Source: a virus
Strand: one strand, 5' to 3'
Length of the DNA: 35,270 nucleotides
IMG/VR virus record: IMGVR_UViG_3300044825_001053
Coordinates: 1-35,270 of that record
Numbering within the stretch: position 1 is the stretch's first letter; every line of letters starts with the position of its first letter. Below the pieces are notes generated by a model. It did no database searches, was not told the origin of the DNA, and saw only the letters and a list, made by a program, of their open reading frames with translations. Shown in pieces: positions 4,946-29,897 of the stretch. The position numbers and the translations under genes were made by a program.

Positions 4946-7900
4946 TCACTCACCTGTATCCAAGTCGATTTCGTTGAACAACACTCGATCATAAATACGT
5001 TCAAACTGCGGGTACGACACAATGATCCCATCTGCGACGTTCCGCAACCATGCACGCAGATCAGCAACCTGCTTCCCGCCCAACGACCTGAACCCACGGT
5101 TCAACGCTTCTTGTAACGCTTGGTCACGAGCATCCATGTAGATACGGGTGGCTTCGGCAACAGGGTTACCGTCCAGAATGTCGTCACCGACTGCCGCAAG
5201 AATCTGTGTGATCTGGCTTTCTAGACGGTTGAACACCATCGGCTGATAGGCGTAACCGGGGAACCGTTGCTGCAAATCTTGACGTACCATACGCAGATAG
5301 TCGCGTTGTTCTGTCGTGGGGTACGGCCCTGCCATGCGAACCACGTTGCGGTAGATCGAGCGACCTACTAATGCTTGTGCTTCTTCAACCAGTTCGGACG
5401 GTTTCAGTTTCTCACGTTGGCCGGTCGCCAACTGACGGAGATACACCTGGTAGTCAAAGTTTGAGCCGGTCGGAGCGAAGTATCCGGCCACATCCTTGTA
5501 TCGGGCAAATAGGCTACGGTTGTCTCGTTCAAAGTTGCCGAACTCTTTGGAAGCGTCAAGACCGCCAACGGTTGATCGCGTCTTTCCTGCCATGTACAAG
5601 AAAGCGTCATCGCCGAAAACCTGCATGAATGTTTCTACGGCGGTGTCGTAGTTGGCTGATTGGAAGTCACGGAACGCTTTGGATAGTTCTGATCCGTAAA
5701 CGTCGCCGGCGTAGGTTTCTACTTTGAACTCGACGGATGGGCGGGTGGGGCCGACGAACTGGCCGAGCGCACGCAACATGAGTAGGGTGCGGGCGCGACT
5801 ATCGGCGTCATCTTCAAGGCGTTGCTTGTCGGCTTCGTTAGACAGGTCGTATTCGCCGGTCATGGCGAGGACACGCATTGTCTCAATCTTCATGTCGCCC
5901 AACATTCGATTGGATTCTGGGCTTTGAACGGCGTCTTGAACTTTCTGCATCCACGATGGAATAACAGTTAGTTCTGGTTCGCCGTAGGGGGTGAGGAACC
6001 GACGTACATCGTCGGCGGCAGGGAGTTTGCCGAGGATGCGTGACGCTGCGATCTGTGCTAGCGGGCCAAGACCCGGCACAATGTTCAAACCCATGTTGAG
6101 TGTGCGGGCTGGTGCTTGAAGTTCAACACCAGGAACACCAAACATTGATTGTGCGACACCGCCAGCCGCCAAACCAGCGGCACCACCAGCCAACGCTCCA
6201 CCAGCACCAAATACGGCTGCACCACCCAACGCACCAATTCCACCGAAATACGATGTGAGGGGGCCGAGTTGCTTGGAGAACGGATAGTTGAATACGTATT
6301 CGCCGGTTTGCGGGTCTTTCCAGAAGAAGCCTCGCCCGTCGTTATCGGGATCGGCGTCGCGTAGACCTTCGACTGAGACGCCGAGACGCTTCAATGCTTC
6401 GGGGTTAGACGCAGCGATTTTTGTCCACGACGAGATCACTTCTGCCCATGCGGAACCGAACGGCACTACGACGCGGAGGATGTCTGCAAAGTTGGATTTT
6501 TCGGCTGCGTTGTAGAACAGTTCTTTGGTGGAGTCAAGTGCGAAACCTTTGGCATAGGCATCGAGTTCAGACAGTTCTAGTTTTCCTGTTGCGGAGGCAG
6601 GGTTTTTCAGTTTTTCCGTGATGCGTTTAGCCAAACCTGAATCGCCAACATACTGCGCCAGCCAGCGATCTGTTAGTTGTTTGCCTTCTGCTTTGGCGGC
6701 TTTCTGCAACGAATCACGAACCATCGTCAGCCCGTTTTCGTTCAGTTCGTCTACCAGGTTGCTTACTTTCTGGTAGTAATACTGCCGGAACACCGGGCTT
6801 TGCATCAAATAAGCCGACCGCTTGGGATACTGCGACCCAAAGAAACGGTCTACAACCTTATCCCAACCCTTGAACACATTATTTCGCTGGCGTCCACTCG
6901 GCGTCAAATCTCCTGGTGTTGTTTCGATACCAACCTTGAACCACGGCGACAACTCAACATTCGGATCAGCGATCACACGTTCCGCAGCACGAGTCCACTC
7001 GTCTGAATAGTCATACCTCGCGCCCTTCGGCGTCGTCTTGAAAATAGATAACTCTGTACCGTCATCGAGAACAACCTTGCCATCAGCGATTGCCCGACGC
7101 AATACTTCATTGCCACGCGCAACATGATGAACACGGGCGGTCGCATAGTCATTGACATAACTCAATAGGTTCGTATCGTTTGTCATGTCGGCAGTCACAA
7201 CATCCCGTTGACCCGAAGTGGTATCCACCATTTCTTTATTGCGCCAACGGTTCTGCAACTTCTCAACGTATTCCTTGCCCCACGCTTCGGTTTTCAGAAC
7301 ACGCACTATTTCTTCGGATGTCATGTCGCCACGTGCAACCATTTGCATTACGGGGTCGTCATGCAACAAAGAAATCTCGTCTTGCAAACCTTTTCTGTAC
7401 CGTGAACTATCGGCTCGTGTTACAGCCGCCCAGACGCGATCTTTGACGCCACGGTATTCAAGATTGATTGAATCCATCGCTTCACGCATCGTTTGATTGG
7501 TGGCGAGAGAGTATTCCTGCATCCCGCCACGTGCAATACTTTCAGCATCATCAAACATTTCGCCGGTCAAAGTGCCGCGAAACCGTTTGTGTTGCGCCAT
7601 CATAATCCATTGAATCGGGTGGTAAATGCCACCCTTCAAACCTGGTGTGAACGACAGTCGGAACGCCGAGTCGGTCATGTTGCGAAGCACATAACCGGGG
7701 GTCATCAGAGTCAACGGTCGCCACAGTTCATTCTGATAGAACTCCAACGCCGATGCCGGCATCCGAAGTTCCCGATAGTTTTCTGGGTTAGACAGTTTTT
7801 TGCCTTTGCCCATCACCCATCCAAGATCGCCAACCATGCGGCGAACTCGACGTGGGTCGGGGAGAACGGCCGTGATCTGGTTCAGCATTTCTGATTGTGT

Positions 7901-17235: not shown

Positions 17236-17303
17236 CGTGGTGGCGGTTGGTTGGTAGTTTCAGGGTTACCGGTAGTGGTTACCGGGGAACGGAGAGATGA
17301 GAG
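17233..17303 (+). promoter_or_regulatory. Leader with hairpin before gene 17304; possible degenerate copy of the tRNA-like leader
   Basis: It begins with GACGTGGTGGCGGTTGG, close to the GACGTGGTGGCCGGTTGG that opens the tRNA-like element at 18035. It has no TTCGA T-loop. Instead CCGGTA-GTGGT-TACCGG forms a 6-bp stem (17269-17285), followed by GGAACGGAGAG as the ribosome site. Order (GGTT-rich segment, stem, AACGGA, start codon) matches the leaders at 18.0, 19.3 and 20.1 kb. Confidence 0.4.
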
Positions 17304-17603: not shown

Positions 17604-17767
17604 GCGTTCGGGCGGGTGTTCCGTTTAAGCCGACTGTTTCCGGTTGTGACTACTGCTACCGGTTGTCTCGCGTGTTGGTTCCGGTTCCGGTTGTGCCGCA
17701 CATCGGTAGGCCGGGTCACGTGTGCGCGGCGTGTCGCGTGTTGATTGGTTCGGCGGGTCGGTCGTGA
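17600..17767 (+). CDS. Small zinc-finger-like protein (55 aa)
   Basis: A short frame in ATGA overlap with the previous gene and GTGA overlap with the next, encoding two Cys pairs: GCDYCYRL near residue 16 and HVCAACRV near residue 42, i.e. CxxC-x22-CxxC. This is the layout of a minimal zinc ribbon. The N-terminus is MSVRAGVPFKPTVSG. It probably binds zinc and perhaps nucleic acid or a host protein. Overlaps at both ends argue that it is translated. Confidence 0.6.
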   Translation: MSVRAGVPFKPTVSGCDYCYRLSRVLVPVPVVPHIGRPGHVCAACRVLIGSAGRS

Positions 17768-18027
17768 GCGCGCGCGGCCAGAGGTTCTATTCGGCCATCA
17801 TGCTTTGCGCGGCTGATCCTGATGACGTGGTGATTCAGGAGACCGCCGGCGTGTTTCCGCGTGACGTGGTGCAGGGTTGGGCGCGTGACGTGTTGGTGGG
17901 CGCGTCGTCGGCGTATCGCGTGTTTGTGATGGAATACGCGCTAGATCGTGGCGGCGAGATGGTGCCTACCGGTGGCACCGGCGAGATGTGCGCGGGTGAG
18001 AGCCGCGTGCGCTGGTTCCGCGGTTAG
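17764..18027 (+). CDS. Hypothetical protein
   Basis: An 87-aa protein with the GTG start taken from the GTGA overlap with the zinc-ribbon gene. It begins MSARGQRFYSAIMLCAADPD and contains a central helix (FPRDVVQGWARDVLVG). A longer frame beginning at 17722 would lie almost wholly within the preceding gene and is not needed. The gene ends just before the first tRNA-like element. No family recognised. Confidence 0.52.
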   Translation: MSARGQRFYSAIMLCAADPDDVVIQETAGVFPRDVVQGWARDVLVGASSAYRVFVMEYALDRGGEMVPTGGTGEMCAGESRVRWFRG

Positions 18028-18035
18028 TGTTGGTG

Positions 18036-18084
18036 ACGTGGTGGCCGGTTGGCGGTCTGTCGCGGTTCGATCCCGCGGCCACGT
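18036..18084 (+). ncRNA. tRNA-like element 1 (acceptor stem, D-like hairpin, T-arm; no anticodon arm)
   Basis: ACGTGGT (18036-18042) pairs with GCCACGT (18078-18084), giving a 7-bp acceptor-like stem with one T-G wobble. Directly abutting it, as in tRNA, is a T-arm: CGCGG-TTCGATC-CCGCG (18061-18077), with a 5-bp stem and a 7-nt loop fitting TTCRANY. The 18-nt linker GGCCGGTTGGCGGTCTGT contains GCC-GGTT-GGC, a D-arm-like hairpin with GG in the loop. There is no room for an anticodon arm and no encoded CCA. It lies between genes ending at 18027 and starting at 18132. Confidence 0.65.
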
Positions 18085-18086
18085 GC

Positions 18087-18115
18087 TAGGCGTATCGGCG
18101 GCCTACAACAGCCGA
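18087..18115 (+). ncRNA. H-type pseudoknot 1, upstream of gene 18132
   Basis: Stem 1 is TAGGC (18087-18091) with GCCTA (18101-18105). Stem 2 is TCGGC (18095-18099) with GCCGA (18111-18115). Interleaved order and loops GTA, G and CAACA make a classic H-type knot. The ribosome-site-like AACGGAAAC follows, then the ATG at 18132. The same element before the clamp gene changes stem 2 by a compensating pair. Confidence 0.6.
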
Positions 18116-18131
18116 AGAACGGAAACATGAC

Positions 18132-18701
18132 ATGACTAGGGTTCTCGCGGCGCGGCGGTTCACGCGCATAGTGACGTTGGATAGTTTGGGCCGGCCGTGG
18201 CACGTGTCCGGTAGTGGCCGTGTTTGGCCGGTTCGGTTCGATGTGAACGCTGATTTAGTGCATCGGGACGGTAATGCGCGGCCGTATTTCTCTATTACGG
18301 CCGACGTTATGCGGCGGATCGGCGGCGGTGATCGGTTCCTAGCGGGTGGCGCGATGCATGGCGAGATTCTTGCGCTGTTTCCGAATGTGCAGCCGCTAGT
18401 GGCGGTTCACCTATCCGATGATCGTGGTGTGCCTATGCACGCGGCCGCTAATGCGTCCTACTTTGCGGGTGAATCTCAGTATCACGGGGCCGATGTTCCG
18501 AATCTCGCTAAGCATCTTCGCGTTTCTGTTGAGACCGCTAGTGAGATGATGGCGGCGGCGGCGGCTGATAGTGGCGCGGATCGTTCGGCGGTTTGGGCGG
18601 TGTTGTTCGAACGGTTCGGTTTGTTTGATCGTTGGGCGGGCGATGCTGCTGCTGCTCGCGGTTTGTTGCATGAGAACGCGGCCGTGGTTGGTGCAGCATG
18701 A
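18132..18701 (+). CDS. Conserved phage protein of unknown function
   Basis: A 189-aa protein. 'ARPYFSITADVMRRIGGGDR' is followed by 'GGAMHGEILALFPNVQPLVA' and 'VHLSDDRGVPMHAAANASYF'. I associate this His/Asp pattern with a family found in actinophages and other aquatic phages, but I know of no assigned function. The C-terminal half is Ala-rich helical. The start is set by AACGGAAACATGAC upstream and by homology of the leader with that of the clamp gene. It is the first gene after tRNA-like element 1 and the pseudoknot, so it may be the regulated cistron. Confidence 0.65.
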   Translation: MTRVLAARRFTRIVTLDSLGRPWHVSGSGRVWPVRFDVNADLVHRDGNARPYFSITADVMRRIGGGDRFLAGGAMHGEILALFPNVQPLVAVHLSDDRGVPMHAAANASYFAGESQYHGADVPNLAKHLRVSVETASEMMAAAAADSGADRSAVWAVLFERFGLFDRWAGDAAAARGLLHENAAVVGAA

Positions 18702-18913
18702 CCGCGCGACGAGAGTGGCACGCGGCCGGCGTGTCATGGCGGGTTATCCCACATAGCGGCGCGTTGCAGGCGACGTGGTGGCCGAATGACGCCTACATTG
18801 TCACGCGCACGTTCTACGGGTACACGCGGCGCGACGCGGCGCGATTGGTGGCAGCCGAACGGCGCGAATCTAATGCGCGGCGTGAACCGTTCGCGGCGGT
18901 GATGGTTCGATGA
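18698..18913 (+). CDS. Hypothetical small basic protein
   Basis: A 71-aa Arg-rich protein (MTARREWHAAGVSWRVIPHS ... YTRRDAARLVAAERRESNAR) starting in ATGA overlap with the previous gene. A beta-hairpin-like aromatic N-terminus leads to a basic helix. This could bind nucleic acid, although nothing specific is recognised. It ends in ATGA overlap with the next gene. Confidence 0.55.
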   Translation: MTARREWHAAGVSWRVIPHSGALQATWWPNDAYIVTRTFYGYTRRDAARLVAAERRESNARREPFAAVMVR

Positions 18914-19137
18914 TGGCGGCGAATCTTCCGGCCGAATGTGAACTACCGGGCATGACATGTAGCGACAGCGGCGGCACGTGGTGGATTCTGGTTCCGTTAG
19001 GTCTGCTCGCTATCGTGGCGGTGTACCGGTGGCAGGTCTCGCGGTTCCGGCCGTGCGGGTTATGCGGCGCGGGCCGGTTTGATCGGTGCCGGCCAGACTG
19101 TTTCTGTCCGGTTTGTGTTGATTCGGAACGGGGGTGA
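18910..19137 (+). CDS. Small membrane protein with Cys-rich tail
   Basis: A 75-aa protein. A short N-terminus with two Cys is followed by one transmembrane helix (about 24-41, WWILVPLGLLAIVAVYRW). A cytoplasmic-type basic tail follows with CGLC ... CRPDCFCPVCV (seven Cys/His-type ligands close together). Topology is likely N-out, C-in. A membrane-anchored zinc or thiol module is an unusual design. Starts in an ATGA overlap. Function unknown. Confidence 0.55.
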   Translation: MMAANLPAECELPGMTCSDSGGTWWILVPLGLLAIVAVYRWQVSRFRPCGLCGAGRFDRCRPDCFCPVCVDSERG

Positions 19138-19338
19138 ATGATGATTAGAGATTCGAACGTTGCGAAGATTGATCGGCGGGCGCGTGAATGGGCGCGTGCA
19201 AACGCGGTTGATTCGTACCGTTATTCGGCGGCGTCATCGTGGTATCGGTCGGCGTTTGACGCTGGTGTGATCACGCGAGACGAATACGATTCGGCGCGGT
19301 TGTATTACGGCGCGTCTTGGGATTACGCGGGAGACTAA
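19138..19338 (+). CDS. Hypothetical small protein
   Basis: A 66-aa protein starting directly after the previous stop (TGA-ATG), rich in Arg, Tyr and Ser (KIDRRAREWARANAVDSYRY ... DEYDSARLYYGASWDYAGD). Predicted two helices. It is the last gene before tRNA-like element 2. No family recognised. Confidence 0.5.
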   Translation: MMIRDSNVAKIDRRAREWARANAVDSYRYSAASSWYRSAFDAGVITRDEYDSARLYYGASWDYAGD

Positions 19339-19347
19339 CGGCGTTCA

Positions 19348-19392
19348 CCGGTGGCCGGTTGGCGGCGTACCACGTTCGAATCGTGGCACCGG
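19348..19392 (+). ncRNA. tRNA-like element 2 (acceptor stem, D-like hairpin, T-arm; no anticodon arm)
   Basis: CCGGTG (19348-19353) pairs with CACCGG (19387-19392), a perfect 6-bp stem. It abuts a perfect T-arm, CCACG-TTCGAAT-CGTGG (19370-19386). The 16-nt linker GCCGGTTGGCGGCGTA again holds GCC-GGTT-GGC. Both paired regions differ in sequence from element 1 while the pairing is kept; the linker core is identical. It sits between genes ending at 19338 and starting at 19439. Confidence 0.65.
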
Positions 19393-19394
19393 GC

Positions 19395-19423
19395 TAGGCG
19401 TATCCGCGGCCTACAACAGCGGA
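19395..19423 (+). ncRNA. H-type pseudoknot 2, upstream of the clamp gene
   Basis: Stem 1 is TAGGC (19395-19399) with GCCTA (19409-19413). Stem 2 is TCCGC (19403-19407) with GCGGA (19419-19423). Loops are GTA, G and CAACA, as in pseudoknot 1. The middle pair of stem 2 is C-G here and G-C at 18097/18113, a double change that preserves pairing. AATGGAAAC and the ATG at 19439 follow. Confidence 0.6.
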
Positions 19424-19438
19424 AGAATGGAAACAGTA

Positions 19439-20104
19439 ATGACCACGGAAACTATTAGCGGGACACGGTTGGCCGTGTTCGGCGGGCAGCACCCGGTGCC
19501 ACCGAAACAGGCGGCCGGGATTATTGGCGCGGTGGCTGCCATCGCGTCACGGGACATGGTTCGGTTGGCCGGCGTTCATGTGGAACATGATCCGGATACA
19601 CGCGGAATTATTCTTACTGCCACCGATTCGTACCGGCTGCTGTCGGTCACGGTGCCTAGTGTCGTGTTAGACGGTGCCACGTTTGATCCGGTGACGGTGT
19701 ACGCGGTCGATCTAGCGCGTGCCGCTAAGAATGTGGCTAAGGGTTCGGACATGCTCTCAATCTCACACGTGGCGGGTGCTACTAACTACGTGACGGTGGC
19801 CGGTGATTCTGGCAGCGTGACGGTTCCGGTTGACGTGACGACATTCCCTAACTACCGGAAACTATTCGACGTGGCCGGTGATGTGTGGCCGGCTGCTACT
19901 GATTCGGTGCGCGTGAACCCGGAACTATTCGCGGGTCTGTTTGATTCGTGCGCGACGATTAGCGGCTATGCGGATCGGCCGAAAGACGCGCCGCTGCCAG
20001 AGGTAGACATTCTGCGAATGTCGGCTACGAAAGTAACGATGATCACCGGCACCGCTACTAACGGTGTGTCGTATCGCGGTTTGATCATGCCGGTACGTAA
20101 GTAG
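19439..20104 (+). CDS. DNA polymerase sliding clamp (beta-clamp, DnaN-like)
   Basis: A 221-aa protein with clamp signatures: 'GIILTATDSYRLLSVTV' corresponds to the ATDRYRL segment of DnaN; 'VTTFPNYRKLF' corresponds to FPDYR; and a 'GLIMPVRK' end corresponds to MPxR. At roughly 60 percent of the length of bacterial DnaN it probably has two domains per subunit. It would tether the host polymerase to phage DNA, since no phage polymerase is seen. I chose ATG 19439 over 19427 because GGAAAC sits upstream and the leader aligns with that of gene 18132. It is preceded by tRNA-like element 2 and a pseudoknot. Confidence 0.8.
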   Translation: MTTETISGTRLAVFGGQHPVPPKQAAGIIGAVAAIASRDMVRLAGVHVEHDPDTRGIILTATDSYRLLSVTVPSVVLDGATFDPVTVYAVDLARAAKNVAKGSDMLSISHVAGATNYVTVAGDSGSVTVPVDVTTFPNYRKLFDVAGDVWPAATDSVRVNPELFAGLFDSCATISGYADRPKDAPLPEVDILRMSATKVTMITGTATNGVSYRGLIMPVRK

Positions 20105-20110
20105 TGTGCA

Positions 20111-20156
20111 GCCGCGACCGGTTCGGCGGTTCTCCGGGTTCGATTCCCGGCGCGGC
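20111..20156 (+). ncRNA. tRNA-like element 3 (acceptor stem, D-like hairpin, T-arm; no anticodon arm)
   Basis: GCCGCG (20111-20116) pairs with CGCGGC (20151-20156). It abuts a T-arm, CCGGG-TTCGATT-CCCGG (20134-20150). The 17-nt linker ACCGGTTCGGCGGTTCT keeps the GGTT core, with CCG/CGG able to pair. It lies just after the clamp stop codon. A 7-bp hairpin replaces the pseudoknot of the other two copies. Confidence 0.65.
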
Positions 20157-20159
20157 ACG

Positions 20160-20176
20160 GTGTCCACGGTGGACAC
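20160..20176 (+). promoter_or_regulatory. Hairpin between tRNA-like element 3 and gene 20193
   Basis: GTGTCCA-CGG-TGGACAC is a perfect 7-bp stem with a 3-nt loop. AGAACGGAGAAACAG, the ribosome-site region, and the ATG at 20193 follow. It occupies the place of the pseudoknots in the other two leaders. With no U-tract it is unlikely to be a simple terminator. Confidence 0.5.
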
Positions 20177-20192
20177 AGAACGGAGAAACAGA

Positions 20193-20348
20193 ATGAGAAC
20201 AGTTATGTATTTCGTGCGGGCGTTGCGCGCCCGGTGGCATTACCGCGGGCCGGGCGCGCCATGTCTCGCGTGTGTTTGGGAGACCGGCGACGACGACACC
20301 CCGTACCATTGGATTTATTGCGAGCGTTGCGATTGGGGGAATCAATGA
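20193..20348 (+). CDS. Small zinc-ribbon-like protein (51 aa)
   Basis: Begins MRTVMYFVRALRARWHYRGP and has CLAC near residue 28 and CERC near residue 44, a CxxC-x14-CxxC zinc-ribbon layout with aromatic residues between (YHWIY). The start is chosen at the ATG after AACGGAGAAACAG; an upstream frame extension would run through the tRNA-like element. ATGA overlap with the next gene. Probable nucleic-acid or protein-binding adaptor; exact role unknown. Confidence 0.58.
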   Translation: MRTVMYFVRALRARWHYRGPGAPCLACVWETGDDDTPYHWIYCERCDWGNQ

Positions 20349-29323: not shown

Positions 29324-29897
29324 TGAATTTCTCCGGTACGAAGTGAAAGAACACGAGGTCGGCTTTACCTTTTGATTTGGTGGGCCGATAATGCCATGCG
29401 TTTGTGCCTGAGTAGCATACGGCATCGTTTGGATTGAGATGCGCCTCGGTCCAATCGACGGTCTTGATGACCTCTTTGATCTGGACACCTTCGGGATGAG
29501 GATGTTCAATGGCGTCGCGTTCTGTGTCGGTCATTGACGGTCCGATAGCGATAGGCCACGGCGTCTTCTGTTCCTGCCGGATCAGATAATCGATCGTGTA
29601 TCGGCATTGGGGGCGGTCGATGTGGAGTGGGCATTGGCCGCCCTTGTTGTACATGGACAGGAAAACGTAGGACGGTTTTACTTTCTCGCCGAATAGGTCG
29701 GAAGCGTAGTCCGTCAGTTGGTGGTGGATATTCTGAAAGAACGGAACATTGTGTGCGTAAGTACGATTGAACCCTGTCGGGTCAACGTCTTTCGGCATGA
29801 TCGGAACGATCTGTTCCATAAAATCAAGAATGGTTCGATACGTTGCTGTGTCAAACAGTTCTTTGATGACGACCGGTCGGGTCGTGTAGCGGGCCAC
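29307..29897 (-). CDS. 2-oxoglutarate/Fe(II) oxygenase-like protein
   Basis: A 196-aa protein. Candidate iron ligands are H92 and D94 (CPLHIDRPQ) and H169 (GTNAWHYRP), with R171 or a nearby Lys for the co-substrate. 'FLSMYNKGGQCPLHIDRPQC' resembles cupin/JmjC-like oxygenases carried by aquatic phages. It overlaps the second oxygenase by 17 nt. GTG start with a strong CAGGAGG site. That site is partly held in a hairpin (29905-29924). Substrate unknown; virion or host protein modification is possible given the tail-gene neighbours. Confidence 0.75.
   Translation of the reverse strand: MARYTTRPVVIKELFDTATYRTILDFMEQIVPIMPKDVDPTGFNRTYAHNVPFFQNIHHQLTDYASDLFGEKVKPSYVFLSMYNKGGQCPLHIDRPQCRYTIDYLIRQEQKTPWPIAIGPSMTDTERDAIEHPHPEGVQIKEVIKTVDWTEAHLNPNDAVCYSGTNAWHYRPTKSKGKADLVFFHFVPEKFNGSLN

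Follow-up and report, generated by a model that had tools for sequence, protein, structure and literature searches.

The enzyme RNase P measures a 12-bp stack in its substrates, stacks on the G1-C72 pair and pairs with R73-C74-C75, the RCC sequence of the substrate meeting a GGU of RNase P RNA (PMC11143913). Its substrates outside the tRNAs include the C4 antisense RNA, phage M3 RNA and sites between the genes in operon mRNAs of E. coli (PMC11143913). C74 acts as an antideterminant for human RNase Z when the next base is C or U (PMC11649783). Self-cleaving RNAs have been described near phage genes as well: Perreault et al. 2011 reported hammerheads that flank prophage genes, and their inference was that the long transcripts of phages may be cut to gene-length mRNAs (PMC3088659). 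Here we describe tRNA-like elements (TLEs, a name coined in this analysis for the whole class), three of which lie in gene gaps of a 35,270-nt stretch of viral DNA (IMG/VR record IMGVR_UViG_3300044825_001053, referred to in its full length as the window). We propose, with a probability that we put at roughly 0.55, that TLEs are cis-acting processing marks at which polycistronic phage mRNA is cut, and natural counterparts of the acceptor/T-arm substrate of RNase P.

An initial annotation of the window had drawn the same fold at 3 places. We used a descriptor that called for a TTCRANY loop, a 5-bp T-stem, an abutting acceptor stem of 6–7 bp and a linker of 8–30 nt, applied it to both strands of the 35 kb, and recovered these 3 elements (E1, E2 and E3) and nothing else, against an expectation of 0.2 matches per window from third-order Markov sequences. 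All 3 are retained in a close relative of the window, IMGVR_UViG_3300010370_003292. Their parts are as follows.

18036–18084, + strand: TLE E1, kept in the close relative
18036–18042/18078–18084: E1 acceptor stem, 7 bp
18044–18047/18053–18056: E1 D-arm, GCCG-GTTGG-CGGT, loop GTTGG
18061–18065/18073–18077: E1 T-arm, loop TTCGATC, followed by tail GCTA
19348–19392, + strand: TLE E2, kept in the close relative
19348–19353/19387–19392: E2 acceptor stem, 6 bp
19354–19357/19363–19366: E2 D-arm, GCCG-GTTGG-CGGC, loop GTTGG
19370–19374/19382–19386: E2 T-arm, loop TTCGAAT, followed by tail GCTA
20111–20156, + strand: TLE E3, kept in the close relative
20111–20116/20151–20156: E3 acceptor stem, 6 bp
20117–20120/20127–20130: E3 D-arm, ACCG-GTTCGG-CGGT, loop GTTCGG
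20134–20138/20146–20150: E3 T-arm, loop TTCGATT, followed by tail ACGG

The linker of E1–E3 is best drawn as a D-arm, with a stem of 3–4 bp and GG in its loop, so that the 3 elements are tRNAs that lack the anticodon arm only. The features of a decoding tRNA that are present are the acceptor stem, the D-arm with GG in its loop and the T-arm with its TTCRANY loop. No anticodon arm with a 7-nt anticodon loop was found in E1–E3, and none can be accommodated, because the 16- to 18-nt linker is already used by the D-arm. ARAGORN reported no tRNA in the window, and this, together with the missing anticodon arm, rules out a decoding tRNA. We also rejected the idea that the linker hairpin is the anticodon arm of a D-armless tRNA, since its GG loops of 4–6 nt are D-loop-like and the stem-less linkers of a second TLE type (see below) keep GG. 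Over the elements, no Rfam 15 family reached its gathering threshold; the best match, to E3, was mascRNA-menRNA (RF01684) at 23.9 bits against a cut-off of 42.5, and a window-wide Rfam search with E values up to 5 returned only this match and a chance microRNA match.

The close relative differs from the window in ways that bear on the fold. A C-G pair replaces the A-U pair of the window in the E3 D-stem, and a G-U pair replaces a G-C pair in the E1 acceptor; one end pair of the E3 T-stem is lost. The E2 D-loop reads ATAGG in the relative and GTTGG in the window. The initial annotation had seen in the linker a D-arm-like hairpin around a conserved GGTT core: the hairpin stands, whereas the core does not, as GATA takes its place in the relative, and what stays constant is the GG that closes the D-loop on its 3' side.

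Further copies with covarying stems are numerous, in related and unrelated phages. A pattern search of IMG/VR that specified the letters of the D-loop and T-loop only, and demanded no pairing in acceptor or T-stem, returned 20 stretches, from which the whole fold emerged in 5 further phage contigs and the close relative, mostly in 2–4 copies; the same kind of pattern gave 25 matches in 84,980 cellular genomes (GTDB), none of them with the fold. Two larger phage genomes carry type II TLEs, in which a linker of 8–12 nt keeps GG and has no D-stem. About 10 copies were counted in the 61-kb genome G018 and 9 in the 111-kb genome G005, and a further scan gave G021, with 3 copies, and some single-copy contigs. 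We tabulated 42 TLEs from 11 phage contigs, the maximum being about 10 per genome. TLEs are a class present in related and unrelated phages, laboratory phages included. The carriers are mostly metagenomic contigs, and a host, Streptomyces, is known for the TG1/phiC31 family only. Protein-based searches of IMG/VR with G018 and G005 found no relatives but these genomes themselves, and for the isolate host of G021 neither phages nor plasmids gave a match. The element was absent from most isolates searched, with none in Bipper, DrYang, Immanuel3, VWB, Min1, Colucci, RiverRaider, Jeon or ct2KA10, and a class search of 297 cellular genomes carries little weight, as just 20 candidates were scored per genome. 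A match in Dennebes was discarded, because it falls inside a tRNA gene.

The abundance of copies has a bearing on another explanation, by which excised RNAs of about 45 nt are themselves the product and act in trans as decoys for host tRNA enzymes or for tRNA-targeting defences, the copies setting the dosage. The numbers in G018 and G005 would suit such decoys, as would retention of the elbow and acceptor with loss of the decoding part. Decoys would have no need to sit so close to stop codons and the junctions between genes, however, and the copies are scattered among genes rather than clustered, except in G021 (IMG 2681812969); we regard this explanation as improbable.

Several single loci merit mention. 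In L107 (IMGVR_UViG_2681812969_000001, a record from an isolate genome), 3 consecutive TLEs share one intergenic stretch at 6884–7218, with GGC-rich repeats between them. The TLE-like sequence at L134:458–500 differs from the tabulated TLEs in its 8-bp acceptor and the CCA behind it, and is maybe of a different kind. The TLE at L012:9187–9242, on the – strand, has a linker lengthened by an insert, ATCTTCAAGGAT, that may be left over from an anticodon arm. ARAGORN miscalls a tRNA-Arg at L005:1912–1984, a position that overlaps a TLE. One G018 element matched mascRNA-menRNA at 24.3 bits, again below the cut-off of 42.5.

Pairing is kept while sequence changes. In the alignment of type I elements, both sides change in 11 of 15 pairs, and 98% of cells are paired as compared with 36–53% in slid controls; in that of type II, both sides change in 10 of 11 pairs. 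Many copies in these models came from a descriptor in which pairing is required, for which reason the sets gathered by gene homology are the fairer tests of covariation. A profile search with the sliding-clamp protein encoded between E2 and E3 yielded 6 contigs, in all of which the clamp gene has an element both before and after it. In the downstream set, 88 of 90 cells are paired, with compensatory types in 10 of 15 columns; upstream, where an irregular copy in G008 was left out, 72 of 73 cells are paired and 10 of 15 columns are compensatory. The earlier proposal that structure rather than sequence is conserved is borne out by these compensatory changes in acceptor and T-stem, the gene-homology sets included.

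The position of TLEs in the message is also alike across phages. For the 42 tabulated elements, with stop codons counted for open reading frames of at least 50 codons, 39 lie –1 to 16 nt past a stop codon (median 7), as compared with 10% of random positions, and about 30 begin 5–9 nt past it. All 42 are on the coding strand. Next comes a start codon that has a Shine-Dalgarno-like sequence, in most cases within 16–50 nt and typically at 27–50 nt, and the spacing to the stop varies far less than that to the start; the genes downstream are unrelated between phages. These relations argue against a regulatory leader of the downstream gene, in which a protein of host or phage would bind the tRNA mimic and control translation in the manner of the thrS operator: although the spacing to the start codon and the hairpins near the ribosome-binding site would be in keeping with it, the tighter distance is the one to the stop, and a single ligand would have to serve very different, unrelated genes. 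We hold such a leader to be a poor prospect. Poorer still is the suggestion that the elements act as DNA, as protein-binding palindromes or as recombination or replication sites, for while they are inverted repeats in intergenic DNA, every tabulated copy is on the coding strand, the loop consensus is asymmetric and tRNA-specific, and G-U pairs occur.

The stop codon ahead of a TLE is TAG in 23 of 39 cases, as compared with 37 of 170 predicted genes of 2 carriers, and several of these stops share the context TAGCAC or TAGCAA. The enrichment in TAG and a spacing of 6–8 nt prompted us to consider readthrough stimulated by the structure; this was rejected for E1, where an in-frame stop follows 2 codons on.

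The 3' tail of the elements follows a rule of its own. Outside G018, position 73 is a purine in most copies, position 74 is C in all (counted with corrected end coordinates for G005.d and G006.a) and position 75 is never C, so that no CCA is encoded; over the whole table CCA is encoded in 0 of 42, in agreement with the initial annotation, in which no CCA fitted. The acceptor/T stack is 11–13 bp, and G+1/C72 is present in most copies. With this stack of about 12 bp, the T-loop, the purine discriminator, C74 (R73-C74 outside G018) and G+1/C72, TLEs have several features of an RNase P substrate. As for RNase Z, CCA is absent, and C74-U75, an antideterminant for the human enzyme, occurs in some copies, by which the tail leans to RNase P over RNase Z.

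A link with tRNAs was observed in a family of laboratory phages. Our model R1 has a match at position 29628 of Streptomyces phage TG1, in the gap that separates gp33 from gp34. Gene homology identified the same gap in 8 relatives, and a tRNA-like element is present there in 8 of 8 cases. The elements of phiC31, Vash, Euratis, Samora, Heather and Lilbooboo have a full D-arm, a T-arm and an expanded, odd anticodon arm; that of phiBT1 is tRNA-sized with a simpler anticodon arm; and that of Shawty is minimal like TG1's. The phiC31 element was missed by the descriptor and by model R2, because neither allows a tRNA-sized linker, and was found via TG1. Among the 9 family elements, 5 begin 7 nt after TAG and the rest 9–23 nt past a stop, the tails are ACTC, ACGC, GCTC or GCCC, and in acceptor and T-stem 107 of 108 cells are paired, with double changes present. 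The acceptor/T part is constant and the anticodon part variable or gone, which disfavors a decoding function; the series suggests that the family elements descend from a tRNA. The elements of phiC31 (NC_001978, 31424–31511) and Lilbooboo (MK450431, 30716–30803) are labelled tRNA-Gly, by ARAGORN and by annotation, respectively. In both, the anticodon arm contains an inserted hairpin and CCA is missing, and probably neither is a decoding tRNA.

The run of this family from tRNA-sized to minimal element might be read as the decay of tRNA genes, or as attachment-site scars, with no function left, the more so as tRNA fragments are common in prokaryote genomes (PMC9897764). Decay does not account for compensatory changes that keep the pairing in all stems, nor for a position, strand and tail rule that are alike in unrelated phages, and we consider it very improbable.

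In one contig the equivalent slot is occupied by a ribozyme. L018 (IMGVR_UViG_3300044858_005453) has TLEs in 3 successive gaps, and the gap preceding these holds the following feature.

L018:3170–3235: type II hammerhead ribozyme, 45.5 bits against the Rfam threshold of 37, core intact

The hammerhead begins inside a TAG stop codon, ends ahead of the next gene's ribosome-binding site and is followed by a ribosome-binding-site hairpin, CTACTGAAGGGGTAG, that also occurs 3' of a TLE. TLEs and the hammerhead look interchangeable in position; the hammerhead core CUGANGA/GAAA/NUH was not found at TLEs. Several genes of these phages (L018 positions 2893, 3235, 3648 and 4483; also in L012) have their ribosome-binding site displayed by the hairpin CTACTGAAGGGGTAG (or CTACAGAAGGGTAG), whether a TLE or the hammerhead precedes it. 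The ribozyme bears on the proposal that a TLE is an uncut stability element behind the stop, blocking 3'-5' exonucleases, offering RNase E no landing site or capping ends made by other nucleases. The short fixed distance to the stop codon and the compact GC-rich fold are in accord with this, and avoidance of CCA would prevent charging of the 3' end; yet any strong hairpin would serve, so that conservation of the T-loop, the D-loop GG and R73-C74 would be needless, and a self-cleaving ribozyme sits in an equivalent slot. We judge a stability element of this kind unlikely.

Processing of the message is the reading that we prefer, and placement behind stop codons, replacement by a tRNA-sized element within the phiC31 family and the hammerhead slot all favor it; the earlier notion of processing or regulatory tRNA mimics that punctuate a phage message is to this extent supported, as a putative function. 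From these features we infer cleavage, the identity of the enzyme and the effect on stability. TLEs would be tRNA-derived, non-decoding modules that keep just what the enzymes of tRNA end processing read: a coaxial helix of acceptor and T-stem, about 12 bp long, the elbow of T-loop and D-loop GG, mostly G+1/C72, and the R73-C74 tail. After the ribosome has left the stop codon of the gene ahead, the TLE would fold and be recognized by host RNase P, possibly also by RNase Z. A 5' cut at the acceptor end, usually 5–9 nt past the stop codon, would then divide the polycistronic RNA into mRNAs of single genes or small blocks, and the TLE would stay on the downstream mRNA as a base-paired, tRNA-like 5' cap, often with a second hairpin, that should resist 5'-end-dependent decay. 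Avoidance of CCA may keep the TLE from being charged. Cutting by RNase Z and excision of the TLE may also be compatible with the data.

Several observations weigh against this scheme. C75 and A76 of RCCA, which aid RNase P, are missing from TLEs, and a C or U next to C74 impedes human RNase Z (PMC11649783). G018 breaks the R73-C74 rule, and Shawty has C75. The covariation counts from descriptor-picked copies are partly circular, a circularity of which the gene-homology sets are free, and minimum-free-energy folding with 25-nt flanks lends no more than modest support, with both helices in 18 of 42 elements and a mean z of –1.55. A downstream hairpin was rejected as a universal part of TLEs, being missing after several elements of G005 and G018.

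In the window, E1–E3 each start 6–9 nt past a stop codon, and downstream of each come a hairpin and, beyond it, a ribosome-binding site. The neighboring features are these.

17722–18027, + strand: gene upstream of E1, its stop TAG 8 nt ahead of E1
18095–18115, + strand: hairpin after E1, TCGGC-GGCCTACAACA-GCCGA, upstream of the start codon
18132–18701, + strand: gene downstream of E1, phrog_17696, of unknown function
19403–19423, + strand: hairpin after E2, TCCGC-GGCCTACAACA-GCGGA
19427–20104, + strand: sliding-clamp-like gene (DNA polymerase), between E2 and E3
20160–20176, + strand: hairpin after E3, GTGTCCA-CGG-TGGACAC
20193–20348, + strand: short gene downstream of E3

The stems of the hairpins after E1 and E2 covary with each other, and the hairpin after E3 is wholly different in sequence in the close relative but still strong, with 6 bp (CCGGCC-ACCC-GGCCGG). 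The gene at 18132–18701 is the first of 4 tightly packed genes in a block that ends at 19338. The sliding-clamp-like protein is short (225 aa) and has a weak Pfam match to the central domain of DNA_pol3_beta; its gene has TLEs on both sides in every relative found, and the clamp proteins had no match among the isolate phages of INPHARED. E1–E3 occupy 3 of the 4 long gaps in the early operon, in which the genes between gaps are tightly packed or overlapping. The fourth, 17236–17303, starts like E1 (GACGTGGTGGCGGTTGG), has no T-arm and has a different hairpin; it is possibly a lost TLE. The terminase and one other gene of the window point distantly to Beephvirinae (Streptomyces phages).

If the proposed function is correct, DNA phages would have a general way to shape their transcripts with borrowed tRNA-processing enzymes, and TLEs would be a natural counterpart both of the minimal RNase P substrate and of mitochondrial tRNA punctuation. 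They offer a path from a tRNA gene to a non-decoding mRNA element and account for odd tRNA calls in phages. The question can be put to the test in the laboratory phages phiC31, phiBT1 and TG1, and TLEs could be of use in actinobacterial genetics as compact, natural tags for processing.

Among known systems, phage tRNA genes have the acceptor, D-arm and T-arm of TLEs, and a tRNA-sized homologue lies in the same gap of phiC31 relatives; TLEs differ in having no anticodon arm, no CCA and, in the window, no ARAGORN call. The mascRNA and menRNA are set free when RNase P and RNase Z cut a long RNA. They are small tRNA-like RNAs, as TLEs are, and the best Rfam match, though subthreshold, for E3 and one G018 element; but they belong to a vertebrate long non-coding RNA, have a small anticodon-like arm and are single-copy, and the TLE score of about 24 compares with a threshold of 42.5. 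The hammerheads that flank prophage genes resemble TLEs in their proposed intercistronic role, and one shares a TLE operon and slot; they cleave themselves, whereas TLEs, without a ribozyme core, would need a host enzyme. C4 antisense RNA, phage M3 RNA and the E. coli operon sites, as non-tRNA substrates of RNase P in phage RNA or mRNA, come near the role proposed for TLEs, but are isolated cases and are not described in PMC11143913 as a repeated tRNA-like module behind stop codons. With the AT1 acceptor/T-arm model substrate of RNase P, TLEs share the coaxial acceptor and T-stem, the T-loop, a 5' leader and R73-C74 (PMC11143913); the AT1 substrates are synthetic and carry CCA, whereas TLEs are natural, lie in phage mRNA without CCA and often have a D-arm. 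We found no Rfam family or paper describing TLEs, in agreement with the initial annotation, which knew of no such class; older phiC31 papers may mention a tRNA-like sequence between genes 13 and 14. We would give about even odds to the view that TLEs are a new RNA class, an anticodon-less punctuation derived from tRNA by which diverse phages make host RNase P (perhaps RNase Z) cut behind stop codons, so that each gene block becomes a capped message. The principle of cutting would be that of mitochondrial tRNA punctuation, but with TLEs in place of usable tRNAs.

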